A stretch of DNA of 64,000 nucleotides from Bolinopsis microptera (taxonomy: Eukaryota > Ctenophora > Tentaculata > Lobata > Bolinopsidae), in assembly GCF_026151205.1 (NCBI RefSeq), contig NC_087079.1:17602945-17666944 (forward strand), written 5' to 3'. Made by a program: the position numbers and the translations under genes. A model generated the notes under the pieces. That model ran no database searches, was not told where the DNA came from, and saw nothing but the letters and a program-made list of their open reading frames with translations. Shown here one piece after another: positions 26,893 to 31,044 of the stretch; the stretch's first letter is position 1, and the number at the start of each line of letters is the position of its first letter.

Positions 26893-27065
26893 ACATACTG
26901 AAATATTGATAATTTAGTCATTTTAAAATATTTTTAGCTGATGTTTTTACAGAACATTACTTACAATCCGTAGAAGAAGCCCTTTAAAGAATTATATAAT
27001 CAAACAATAAATGACGAAGTTACAAACCGAACAAGGTCGAGAGAAGCAAAATTGAAATTTTTGGG

Positions 27066-27165
27066 TTCCCGTACTGTAGTGCGACACGTACCCTAGTGCG
27101 AAACATACCCTAGTGCGAAACCTTCAAGATCGACACTGTCGCACTACAGTACGCTACCTGGAATG
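27066..27165. repeat. Inverted repeat hairpin
   Basis: CGTACTGTAGTGCGACA (27069) pairs with TGTCGCACTACAGTACG (ending about 27162). Between and after them CCCTAGTGCGAAAC and variants recur. It lies downstream of the MULE-like fragment and could be the terminus or sub-terminal region of that transposon, but this is inference. Confidence 0.5.
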
Positions 27166-27319
27166 TACTGCGACACGAACTAAAGTGCGACAAAAAACTA
27201 CACATTCAATAAAATTTGAAATTACAATACAATGTTTTTAAGTTTTAATGACAAGAGTGTAGTCGTGTATGAGTATTGCATTGGGGTTAAATATTAAATC
27301 AAAAATATTTCATTAAATA

Positions 27320-27603
27320 TTACACTTCAAATAGTCCATTCTGTGTTCCAACACACTTCAAATAGTCCATTCTGTCATAATCATCGTAGCAATCAATCTC
27401 AGCGTTCAGGTGACGGTCGTAATCGATCCACTTCTTCAGTCGGGGAGGAGGTGGTTGTCTGAGCATCTTCTGGTTGATCTTCCACTGGGTTAGATCCTGC
27501 TCCTTCTTCAGGACGTCGATAAATCGCCAGATAGTAGGGTTGGTGCAGCCCATCAAGGATCGAAAACCGTTGTACCAACCCTCAGCAATGTAGAATTTAA
27601 GAT
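27320..27603 (-). pseudogene. MULE-type transposase C-terminal fragment
   Basis: On the minus strand the coding part reads AEGWYNGFRSLMGCTNPTIW, then RFIDVLKKEQDLTQWKI. This resembles the conserved block (VEGWHN, HPxIWxFI, LKxEQ) near the C-terminus of MULE transposases common beside FLYWCH domains in invertebrate genomes. About 94 codons remain. The 5' side is cut exactly where the 756-bp element (27604-28359) begins. The 3' end contains a 23-bp direct duplication (ACTTCAAATAGTCCATTCTG at about 27325 and 27356). Confidence 0.65.
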
Positions 27604-28359
27604 ATATATACATATCACCGGAGACTCGCGGGCGGAACAAAATATTGCACGCGCACGCGCGTGCAATATTTCATATGTCCCCGAGGGCGCTAGCCCGAGG
27701 AGGACATATTTTCGTATAGCACGGAGGGCCCATCGGGCCCGAGTGCTATACGATTTTTCCGCCCGCGGGTCGAGGTGATGTGGATTATATCCACCAGCGG
27801 GCGTATTACAGTTAATATATAATTTTATAAATAAACAATGGAGCTTGTATAAAAGTCAACTCTAGAAAAGGTCGCCACTAATAGTTGTAACCATGGTAAC
27901 ACGTCACGTGTTCAATGTAAGCCAATCATAAAGGGCTGTGTCGTATATAGGGGCTGGAGATGCACTGCATTCCTGGGCCGTGGGAATAATGAATGTAATG
28001 TCAGTGACGATGAATATCAATAATATAGGGGGATTATAGTGCTGATGTGTATTATGTAGTGTGTTATAATAACTTTGATATAAATCAAAGTATCATGTCA
28101 TCTGCTCACGAGCTGCATGAGCAGCCCTACCGGACACAAAAATAAAATGTATATATTATAGTCAGTGTATTAAGGAATTTCACATGGAGACGATACAGAA
28201 ACTGAAAATATTTTAGAGAACTCCGGGCTATATTGCTACTGGTCAAATTAAATGTCACTTGTTAGCGGGCTATATCATGAGCGGGCTGTAGAGATATCGG
28301 GTCCTTTGACAGCGGGCTGGTGAGAGCCCGCTATGCGAAAAAGCGCACGCTGGTGGATA
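27604..28359 (+). mobile_element. 756-bp hairpin-headed element, copy A
   Basis: Same length as, and by eye essentially identical to, the reverse complement of 29211-29966. The head, 27627-27767, has a perfect 11-bp outer stem (CGCGGGCGGAA with TTCCGCCCGCG) enclosing three stem-loops at 27641-27670, 27673-27709 and 27713-27752, a cloverleaf layout. The tail end GCGCACGCTGGTGGATA (ending 28359) reappears inverted inside as TATATCCACCAGCGGGCG at 27787, so an inner inverted repeat encloses about 570 bp. More stem-loops occur near the tail (AGCGGGCT-AGCCCGCT at about 28302). No coding capacity. No clean target duplication at this copy. Its left edge truncates the MULE-like fragment. Confidence 0.85.
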
Positions 28360-28556
28360 TAATATAATTTAGTTACCATGTATTTTTGGAGCCGAACAGC
28401 ATAAGTATATTGTGAAGTCATGTACACTGTCACATTGCAAGCTGTTATATGTTTTATGTGGTAAATGGAAATTCATAAAACGGAGTACGCATACACTTGA
28501 AGACTTGAAGACTCAATCAGCTGATCAGTGATCACCTCATATTATTTATTATATTT
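28360..28556. other. Spacer between copy A and the 130-bp repeat
   Basis: AT-rich, no gene. Translating it on the minus strand does not continue the MULE-like fragment. Confidence 0.35.
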
Positions 28557-28690
28557 ATAATTATTATAATACAAATGCGAACAGCACGAGGTACGTACAA
28601 AAACTTATGGAACAAAAGTCTTGAAAACAAGCTGCTGTAACACCGGATAACGACAATTTGTCGTTAGCTTGTTATAGTTGTAGATGCAAT
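28557..28690 (+). repeat. ~130-bp dispersed repeat, copy 2
   Basis: Near-identical to 26138-26275. It ends about 210 bp before the pentraxin-like start codon. Confidence 0.75.
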
Positions 28691-28903
28691 TCAATACGGA
28701 AAGTTTAAGTTGCAATTACTTGATAAGATAATAAACCGGATGATGTACCAGATGATACAAGTTTGATTGAGCAATTTGACGACATAATCAGATGTTAACC
28801 AAAGAATGTAGTCCCATCATTGAACGACGTGCAGGTATACAAGCAGCAAATCTTTAACTGACCCTGGGAACTAGCTGAGCTCACTTATCTTTTTCACAAT
28901 CTA

Positions 28904-30828
28904 ATGATGATCTCTCTGACAATTCTACTCGCAGTGGTGGGACTAGCCGCCAGTGGCACCGCCAGGGACACCAGCTACAACAAGATCATCAACTTCCCCG
29001 CTGCTAGCAACGCCAACTACATCAGCTTCAACCCTGAACTTCCTGCCCTGACTGGATTAACTGTGTGTGCTTGGAAGCAGGACAAGGACAATGGACGAGC
29101 CAGATACTGGTTCAGCTACGCAGTTCCTGGAAACGATAACGAGCTCATCTTGGGAGACGCAAATGGTATGCACAAATTTTATGTGAAGAGAACCGTGACT
29201 CAATCTTATATATCCACCAGCGTGCGCTTTTTCGCATAGCGGGCTCTCACCAGCCCGCTGTCAAAGGACCCGATATCTCTACAGCCCGCTCATGATATAG
29301 CCCGCTAACAAGTGACATTTAATTTGACCAGTAGCAATATAGCCCGGAGTTCTCTAAAATATTTTCAGTTTCTGTATCGTCTCCATGTGAAATTCCTTAA
29401 TACACTGACTATAATATATACATTTTATTTTTGTGTCCGGTAGGGCTGCTCATGCAGCTCGTGAGCAGATGACATGATACTTTGATTTATATCAAAGTTA
29501 TTATAACACACTACATAATACACATCAGCACTATAATCCCCCTATATTATTGATATTCATCGTCACTGACATTACATTCATTATTCCCACGGCCCAGGAA
29601 TGCAGTGCATCTCCAGCCCCTATATACGACACAGCCCTTTATGATTGGCTTACATTGAACACGTGACGTGTTACCATGGTTACAACTATTAGTGGCGACC
29701 TTTTCTAGAGTTGACTTTTATACAAGCTCCATTGTTTATTTATAAAATTATATATTAACTGTAATACGCCCGCTGGTGGATATAATCCACATCACCTCGA
29801 CCCGCGGGCGGAAAAATCGTATAGCACTCGGGCCCGATGGGCCCTCCGTGCTATACGAAAATATGTCCTCCTCGGGCTAGCGCCCTCGGGGACATATGAA
29901 ATATTGCACGCGCGTGCGCGTGCAATATTTTGTTCCGCCCGCGAGTCTCCGGTGATATGTATATATATCTTATACCAAGATAATTAAGGTCAAGTGGATC
30001 CACGTGTGTGGTGCCTGGGACTCAGAGACTGGAAATGCCGTCATCAGTATCAACGGAAAAGCAGTAAATACTGTCGTGGTCAAGAAAGGAGAGGCTTTGA
30101 GAGCAGGAGGTAATCTGGTTATCGGCCAGGAGCAGGACACTGTAGGAGGAGGGTTCGACTCTAACCAAGCATACATTGGAAACCTCTACAACATCAACAT
30201 GTGGGACAGAGCTCTCACTCAAGCTGAAATTGCTTCTATGTTCAATGAAGGTATGTGTGGGATCTTCTTTGCTGGTTTGAGTGGTTCGGAACCAATCATC
30301 TCTTACGCTGATATTCTGGCCAAAGAAATGCATGGAGACGTATCCGTCGTTGATGGGGAGTGCGATGTTGTCGAATGCCCCCCGGTTGTCGAATGCCCGG
30401 TTGTCGAATGCCCGGTTGTTGAATGCCCTGCTCTTTTCTGCCCTGAAAAAGAATGCCCTGTAACAGAATGCCCTGCTGTCACATGCCCTGAAAAAGAATG
30501 CCCTGCTGTCAAGGAATGCCCTGTTGTCGAAGAAATAGAATGCCCTGCAAAAGAAGAATGTTCTCTGCCTGCTAGAGATTGCCCCGGTATCGAACCTCAC
30601 CAACCAGCCTGCTGGAAGCCTCTAGAGGAAACCAGGTTCAAGGGAGGTGTGAGCATTGGTTACATTGAAGGAGACATAAACGCAGCCAAGGCTGTGTGTT
30701 ACGCCAGTGGAACATGCTTAGCTATATCTTGTGCGGAGAAAAAAGGAGCAGTTTCATGTCAACTGTTGACTTCATTCGGAAAAGAAAAGAAAGGCAAAGG
30801 TATGACATCATTTGTTTACACATGTTAA
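28904..30828 (+). pseudogene. Secreted pentraxin/LamG-like protein with Cys-Pro repeats and PAN-like tail, exon split by element copy B
   Basis: The ATG at 28904 opens a signal peptide (ISLTILLAVVGLAASGTA). A pentraxin/LamG-type lectin fold follows: LPALTGLTVCAWKQD, NELILGD, KWIHVCGAWDSETG, AYIGNLYNINMWDRALT, and HGDVSVVDGEC, in the order found in pentraxins. Next comes about 65 residues rich in (V)VECP units, then a C-terminal Cys-rich module (KPLEETRF, AKAVCYASGTCLAISC, SFVYTC) like a PAN/apple domain, stop at 30826-30828. The frame is continuous on both sides except for 29211-29974: the 756-bp insertion plus one copy of the 8-bp duplication. Left reading runs into the element and stops at 29239; 764 extra bases also shift the frame. 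No splice pair removing it in frame was found. As sequenced the gene is broken; removing the insert conceptually leaves one uninterrupted exon of about 386 codons. Confidence 0.85.
29211..29966 (-). mobile_element. 756-bp hairpin-headed element, copy B, inserted in a coding exon
   Basis: Reverse complement of copy A. Flanked by direct 8-bp repeats ATCTTATA at 29203-29210 and 29967-29974, the expected target duplication. The codon frame on each side (CAA TCT TAT / TCT TAT ACC) shows that the target was coding DNA. Because the borders are AT-rich, the exact cut between target and element could shift by a few bases. The cloverleaf head lies at the right end (about 29803-29943). Confidence 0.88.
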
Positions 30829-30848
30829 GCAGTGCCAGAAGTAGGTGA

Positions 30849-30854
30849 AATAAA
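30849..30854 (+). promoter_or_regulatory. Candidate polyadenylation signal of the pentraxin-like gene
   Basis: AATAAA 20 bp after the stop codon at 30828, a normal position for a short 3' UTR. Confidence 0.6.
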
Positions 30855-31044
30855 GAACAATTAAATTAGAAGACGGTAGTTTCAAAATTGTGTTCAGTTC
30901 TTTTTTGTTCTTGATATTATTGTAAAACGTTCAAAACTTTAAAAAAGAATGCAATTTTGATAAAATTCACGTAGTTTCATTTTTGAAAAGACAAATTTAA
31001 CGACCATTGAATGAGTACATTTTTTTAAGCTACAAAAATGAAAC

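Follow-up and report, generated by a model that had tools for sequence, protein, structure and literature searches.

What kind of DNA interrupts a pentraxin-like reading frame on contig 8 of Bolinopsis microptera, and how did it come to lie there? Both questions arise from the window analysed here, a stretch of 64,000 nucleotides in which some 760 bp of hairpin-rich sequence separate two open halves of a single frame. The insert most probably belongs, as a non-autonomous element, to a family of Crypton type, Cryptons being DNA transposons with a tyrosine recombinase gene of their own. It would be mobilized by a recombinase through a short core sequence, and a fold in the element may hold its ends; this reading is based on the finding that the same ends bound longer copies, which carry tyrosine recombinase genes.

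The interrupted gene and its insert

The preliminary description had placed the insertion within coding DNA of a pentraxin-like gene, and both points are borne out. The closest paralogue, L069 on contig 13, is a single uninterrupted frame of 402 aa that matches Pentaxin in Pfam (3.7e-35), and the 5′ and 3′ halves of the window gene are, respectively, 86 and 90% identical to it in amino-acid sequence, and 93 and 94% in nucleotide sequence; moreover, the frame is open on either side of the insert (Table 1). Another close paralogue, L070, carries a TGA and a shifted frame. The claimed frame shift and stop likewise hold: the frame is shifted by 2 and a stop follows at 29237–29239, leaving 111 codons (computed from the frame coordinates), after which the pentraxin-like frame of the window allele would end. 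When both halves were searched for paralogues (126 of 126 candidates scored for the 5′ half and the best 150 of 246 for the 3′ half), there was no 100% match besides the window itself, and an empty allele was thus not found in the assembly. Beyond the pentraxin domain, the protein has a run of ECP/CP repeats (VECPVVECP...; window 30370–30600, + strand).

Comparison of 52 copies defines the constant element as TATATCC...GTATATATAT, with TATAT at each end. A hairpin-rich element of ~760 bp is confirmed, close to the ~756 bp first given, but it is not hairpin-headed, as the main hairpins form a cloverleaf at the 3′ end instead. The direct repeat from which the insertion had been recognized, ATCTTATA, is indeed present at 29203–29210 and again at 29967–29974, but it does not represent a family-wide target-site duplication, as detailed in the next section. 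The insert adds 755 bases if the TATAT core is kept once, the 764 originally counted belonging to an alternative model; under both, the frame is shifted by the same amount and the empty site is in frame. The earlier account was silent on a second, inverted copy upstream of the gene, identical to the first, and on many other copies elsewhere. Adjoining the second copy, a 116-aa frame (27320–27670, − strand) resembles a transposase fragment by eye, and gave no Pfam match up to E 0.01; short repeated motifs of the type TAGTGCGAC/TACTGCGACAC are visible by eye at 27060–27200.

Table 1. Positions of the features discussed (window coordinates unless a locus is named)
Feature	Position	Strand	Basis
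5′ half of interrupted pentraxin-like reading frame	28904..29208	+	frame open
3′ half of interrupted pentraxin-like reading frame, including stop	29969..30828	+	frame open
Inserted element, ~755 bp class, family A, TATAT at each end	29209..29968	+	constant part, 52 copies
Left core TATAT, then CCACC	29209..29213	+	junction base composition, 52 copies
Right core TATAT, end of GTATATATAT	29964..29968	+	junction base composition, 52 copies
Second copy, inverted, upstream of gene	27602..28361	-	sequence comparison
5′ terminal segment pairing with internal complementary region	29209..29222	+	pairing probability 0.71 to 0.999, positions 1-14
Internal complementary region, inverted copy of 5′ terminus	29771..29784	+	element positions 563-576
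Cloverleaf, root stem and three hairpin arms	29791..29956	+	DNA fold, two-sided pair changes
Cloverleaf arm 1	29817..29858	+	DNA fold
Cloverleaf arm 2	29861..29897	+	DNA fold; GC to CG change, families A vs B
Cloverleaf arm 3	29899..29930	+	DNA fold; AT to CG change in L012
Recombinase segment with hydrophobic tail, family A	L012:776-1093	-	
Recombinase segment with hydrophobic tail, family B	L066:3830-4190	+	
Recombinase segment with hydrophobic tail, third lineage	L068:2073-2462	-	

Copies, junctions and arrays

The genome searched comprises 264.65 Mb in 232 contigs, and the genome-wide copy numbers given here are lower bounds or refer to the matches listed. Among PDB sequences, a glutamate receptor frame of this genome (L073) comes closest to chains named ML032222a iGluR (E 1.2e-61), ML standing for the ctenophore Mnemiopsis leidyi, and mammalian kainate receptors rank behind them. 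A search with 29205–29970 yielded at least 124 match rows (the best 40 of 316 first-look candidates being scored), whereas patterns for the 5′ and 3′ ends, with up to 2 mismatches allowed, gave 146 (72 + 74) and 159 (80 + 79) matches, respectively, each place among the matches listed having 0 mismatches; control patterns for both ends gave 0 matches. Pairing of the ends by hand resolved a ~755 bp class, a ~1.6 kb class and pairs that lie 3.4, 4.1, 7.6 and 9.3 kb apart. The 1.6-kb and long copies have up to ~195 bp per end in common with the window element, and their extra length is partly nested DNA, such as the LINE-type reverse-transcriptase frames in L010 and L011. The 56 copies of 700–790 bp have a median pairwise identity of 98.9% (range 84.9–100%) and, judged from such identities, the family is young. 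Between the window's own two copies identity is 100%, and L003, the nearest to them among the others, reaches 99.87%; a recent mobile-element insertion into coding DNA of the pentraxin-like gene, as proposed from the outset, is therefore well supported. An assembly error, which had been named as a possible source of the insert, is unlikely, there being many copies with different flanks.

Different nested insertions occupy nearly the same place (element positions 201–204) in two family A copies, at L011:395-3045 and L013:664-1464: the former is the LINE-type reverse transcriptase frame, and the latter is shorter and has inverted ends, CCTTACTCGGGATT. The interior of the 7.6-kb copy (L009:1-7976) contains large inverted repeats, with the same translated frames on opposite strands. 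At G000:C4:9095080-9113601 (− strand), a 3′ end and a 5′ end lie in the same orientation 18.5 kb apart, and represent perhaps a much larger element or unrelated ends.

For the analysis of the junctions, the window and the loci up to L060 were used with five repeat loci dropped, giving 64 distinct copies with both ends; a string filter identified 12 that abut another copy, and the remaining 52 were counted as isolated, including L018, the right side of which adjoins an element of the sister family (see below). Across these 52, the left junction, TATA-TCC, is constant except for one base in one copy (L021), and the right junction, GTATATATAT, is constant except for its last two bases (3 copies) and an inner base (5 copies). 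Direct repeats of at least 8 bp flank 5 of the 52 copies, against 2.6 expected from re-paired flanks, and those of at least 7 bp flank 7, against 7.8 expected; over 49 registers, matches exceeded the shuffled expectation by at most 1 copy for 8-mers and at most 2.5 for 5-mers. An 8-bp target-site duplication is therefore not a property of the family. In one register with zero shuffled expectation there is a lone 8-mer match, which may be that of the window copy, whose repeat is ATCTTATA; for this copy alone, a separate origin, including an 8-bp duplication, is conceivable. Of the 8 bases in the repeat, 4 belong to the invariant AT or TA at the element ends.

The copies lie at a TATA(T) core, and in arrays the core is shared, the junction reading GGTGATATG-TATATATAT-CCACC. 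Two empty sites, recognized by eye in neighbouring tandem-repeat units, contain the core once: CTTTACTAT-TATA-CCCCC at L027 and AGAT-TATAT-ATTTG at L057. Copies of family A and of the sister family, B, are joined through the common core both ways, an A copy preceding a B copy in L061 and following one in L065, which would be the outcome of a single recombinase acting on the two families. Additionally, in L059 and L029, a 3′ end runs into the interior of a further copy, where the join falls on a TATAT at element position 281; this suggests core-like recombination at internal sites. For the window itself, the core model gives an empty site of ...TCTTA-TATAT-CTTATACC and the 8-bp duplication model one of ...TCTTATACC. 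The paralogues could not pick between them, the stretch being variable: by eye, the window gene would be 1 residue shorter than L069 under the duplication model, or 2 longer under the core model.

Recombinase genes and the structure of the element ends

The coding relatives of the element were recognized through L012, a 4.1-kb copy that has both ends of family A and, between them, parts of a gene for a tyrosine recombinase. One of its frames matches Phage_integrase in Pfam (1e-6), two match DUF3504 weakly (0.0035 and 0.072) and the fourth has no Pfam match; the recombinase, which may not be intact, is in separate frames, and no second coding copy of family A was found. A genome search with the C-terminal piece of L012 (17 of 17 candidates scored) yielded 7 matches, of which six are strong (E ≤1.9e-31, including L012 itself) and one is weak (4.7e-4). 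At five of the six strong loci, a cloverleaf end lies downstream in the same orientation, namely at L012 for family A, and at L065, L066 and two copies in L067 for family B, the 3′ end of which is ~84% identical to that in the window. The matching 5′ end is also present at four of these (L012, L066 and both L067 copies), and no family B 5′ end was found at L065. Neither family end was found at the sixth locus, L068, where the lowest z of a fold scan over 22 stretches was −3.5.

The recombinase gene of L066 is predicted to consist of four exons, its introns having been assigned by eye and being of the GT...AG type. The predicted product has 534 aa and matches DUF3504 (9.4e-11; 42.5 bits versus a cut-off of 29.7) and Phage_integrase (1.6e-6), both above cut-off. 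With the L066 splice pattern, both L067 copies can be read no further than 381 aa. Up to E 1, the sole PDB sequence matched by the predicted L066 protein, and that weakly, is QRICH1 (0.054), which is named as a gene with a Crypton-derived domain (PMC3212892). By eye, the box I Arg, the second Arg and the Tyr of the catalytic site are present, and the His of the HxxR motif reads Arg in all three lineages. The 3.4-kb L066 element contains no reverse transcriptase or RT/RNase H frame, its frames of at least 90 aa being the recombinase exons and one antisense frame that overlaps the 5′ end; the reverse-transcriptase frames of L010 and L011 look like nested LINEs. According to Kojima and Jurka, Cryptons match DUF3504 and the recombinases of DIRS and Ngaro do not (PMC3212892); on the basis of that passage and of the DUF3504 match, the recombinase is classed by its sequence as Crypton type. 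At its C-terminus, it ends in a hydrophobic, membrane-span-like tail, which differs in sequence between L012 (A), L066 (B) and L068 (a third lineage); the best 19-residue mean hydropathies are 2.67, 2.62 and 2.27, at 4, 1 and 11 residues from the C-terminus, respectively. The recombinase is therefore predicted, by hydropathy, to be tail-anchored in a membrane.

The cloverleaf consists of a root stem and three hairpin arms. Folded as single-stranded DNA, the 216 bases of 29755–29970 reach −68.1 kcal/mol (z −10.84), with 0 of 200 shuffles as good. A second fold run gave a z of −13.4 for family A; family B, represented by L066, scored −7.0, and L061, which has a third form, scored −8.1. Other stretches starting within the L066 element gave −3.5 to +2.4, and just past its 3′ end the value was −4.4. 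In an alignment of 13 sequences (12 distinct), 96.2% of cells pair, versus 32–54% in slid controls, a proportion that is favoured by the structure having been drawn from one of the aligned sequences. Two-sided changes occur at five pairs. The root stem has three of these (AT/CG, CG/TA and CG/AT), and arms 2 (GC/CG) and 3 (AT/CG) have one each, that of arm 3 in L012 only. The cells with a two-sided change number 21 against 8.6 in shuffled alignments, and the covariation score is 0.076 against 0.030, neither value being reached in any of 500 shuffles; there is no excess in the number of pairs with a two-sided change (5 versus 4.1) or of further pair types (7 versus 7.3). Two pairs are broken in 7 of the 12 sequences, and a few are lost in family B. 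Given the few lineages, the support from covariation is good but not overwhelming.

The cloverleaf also varies little: among the 56 short copies, diversity is 0.0012–0.0024 over positions 601–749. For the first 60 bases the value is 0.0126, and for the body it is 0.026, approximately a ten-fold difference between cloverleaf and body. The copies were collected by short end-pattern matches, which biases the values for those bases and not for most of the cloverleaf. The last 229 bases are identical in the best 40 of 235 candidates, which are the best by selection. A permissive Rfam search of 27000–31000 returned five matches, all below gathering scores, and ARAGORN found no tRNA in 27500–30000.

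When the whole strand is folded, the first 14 bases of the element pair with positions 563–576, and six bases on, the root stem of the cloverleaf starts. In all seven elements scanned, this internal complementary region is the best pairing window for the 5′ end, with energies of −28.9 kcal/mol in four long A copies, −20.4 in the window copy and −16.6 in two B copies. For the 5′ end of the window copy, pairing would be stronger with the internal region that the long A copies have (−28.3); likewise, B elements have a 5′ end that would pair more strongly with the regions of A (−23.9 and −19.6) than with their own. Such stronger pairing with other copies counts against simple co-evolution of the 5′ end and its internal complement. 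A second such region faces the 3′ terminus, as the 5′ arm of the root stem pairs with the 3′ end. The termini themselves carry short imperfect inverted repeats. With sequence complementary to the 5′ end lying beside the cloverleaf, both termini could meet in a single strand. The head-to-tail junction that occurs naturally in L059 forms, when folded, a single long duplex that runs through the core (−83.7, versus −68.1 for the 3′ end alone).

Mobilization of the element and its relatives

A recombinase supplied by a relative would excise the element and join its ends at the core, producing a circle with the junction seen in the arrays; the circle would then recombine its core with a TATA-like site, in this case in the pentraxin-like exon. 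Such a scheme accounts for the junctions, the arrays and the common ends. The cloverleaf and the internal complementary region would hold both ends together in a single strand, and, in line with what has been proposed for DIRS, the end junction may thereby become a folded duplex on which the recombinase acts or from which the circle forms. We infer both the circles and the single-stranded intermediates; for the circles, the arrays joined through the core are indirect evidence. By association with the coding relatives, a tyrosine recombinase acting at the TATA(T) core appears more likely than a mechanism with an 8-bp target-site duplication.

An ordinary cut-and-paste MITE with such a duplication would also explain the 8-bp repeat around the window copy; in a variant of this reading, the transposon duplicates a fixed TATA, which would be indistinguishable from a recombination core. 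The 52 copies show no excess of duplications, however, a long terminal inverted repeat is absent, and the coding relatives with the same ends carry a tyrosine recombinase, which makes this origin improbable. A structured 3′ end with the 5′ end repeated in inverted form close by, the AT-rich target, the arrays and the want of a target-site duplication would befit a non-autonomous Helitron-like element of the HINE or Helentron type. Helentrons and HINEs have subterminal inverted repeats, a 3′ hairpin, no target-site duplication and tandem arrays, and are moved by a Rep/helicase. The present element is like them in its subterminal inverted repeat, 3′ structure, arrays and lack of target-site duplication, but the coding copies with these ends examined here carry a tyrosine recombinase, and a Rep/helicase match is absent among the frames scanned; we regard a Helitron-like origin as highly improbable. 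It is scarcely credible that the element is a new, introner-like intron, spliced out of an unbroken gene: both frame halves are still open, but this says little, since the two identical copies show that there has been too little time for decay and, by eye, no splice pair at the element ends restores the frame exactly. The possibility that ATATCC marks the start of a U12 (AT-AC) intron was rejected separately, as removal between the ends fails to restore the frame (by eye).

A more serious alternative retains the Crypton-type transposon and reinterprets its cloverleaf, either as RNA, such as a stability or packaging signal in a 3′ UTR, or as protein-bound DNA, rather than as a folded single-stranded site. 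In coding copies, the cloverleaf lies downstream of the gene in the same orientation, and base-pair changes cannot separate DNA from RNA. Against this, the cloverleaf is kept in copies without a recombinase gene, it ends close to the recombination core, and the adjoining 5′-end complement is explained more simply by the joining of ends. This alternative is a real possibility, if not the one that we would expect to hold. We lean towards a fold that acts as DNA, because copies that lack a gene retain it and because of its position close to the extremity of the element. The fullest form of our proposal is that a tyrosine recombinase acts on a folded single-stranded attachment site of a eukaryotic DNA transposon, where the cloverleaf and the internal complement would draw the two ends of a strand into a duplex at the TATA core. 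Such an element would lack a reverse transcriptase and would unite a recombinase of Crypton type with ends like those of DIRS; this is put forward tentatively, and is rather doubtful as it stands. Bacteria offer precedents, in that at integron attC sites and at attP of CTX phage, a tyrosine recombinase acts on a folded single strand. The principle would be the same here by analogy, if the recombinase does use a folded single strand.

The element resembles animal Cryptons (CryptonA and CryptonI), as described in PMC3212892, in having a tyrosine recombinase with a DUF3504 match, short non-autonomous copies with the ends of coding copies, no long terminal repeats and short direct repeats as the presumed recombination core. 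It departs from them in its conserved cloverleaf, in an interior stretch that is the complement of the 5′ end and in the hydrophobic tail of the recombinase; animal Cryptons are reported to be without terminal repeats, the word 'hairpin' is absent from the main text of that study, and excision as a circle is proposed there by analogy with prokaryotic elements (PMC3212892). In DIRS1, two internal complementary regions near the 3′ end are complementary to both termini and meet at a circular junction; integration occurs without a target-site duplication, and a circular intermediate is proposed (PMC3266345). The present element is like DIRS1, as portrayed there, in its internal complementary regions near the 3′ end, which face both termini, and in its proposed core recombination, through a circle and without a target-site duplication. 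It is unlike DIRS1 in that the L066 copy has no reverse transcriptase frame and a DUF3504-type recombinase, the terminal inverted repeats are very short and imperfect, and three hairpin arms lie between the right complementary region and the 3′ end. The 3′ structure resembles the ends of a different class of mobile element and, by comparison, would be unusual for a Crypton-type one. At the level of titles and abstracts, the Crypton, DIRS and ctenophore literature yielded no such architecture in a Crypton, and the titles found that pair Crypton with cloverleaf are all on mitochondrial genomes; this provides weak evidence that the architecture is new for a Crypton.

In PMC6681497, Poulter and Butler are cited for the proposal that YR retrotransposons originated from a Crypton and a Gypsy-type RT/RH; DIRS-style complementary regions in an element without reverse transcriptase bear on the order of the steps from the one to the other. 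If the tentative proposal above is true, this would be an element of the kind expected as ancestor, should DIRS have arisen by a Crypton gaining a reverse transcriptase, and the reaction, with the recombinase anchored by a membrane tail, would take place at a membrane, for example the nuclear envelope. With a young, high-copy family that has sharp ends, a defined core and a co-varying structure, excision, circle formation and target choice are directly testable. The window copy provides a concrete case, a recent disrupting insertion in a pentraxin-like gene of Bolinopsis microptera.
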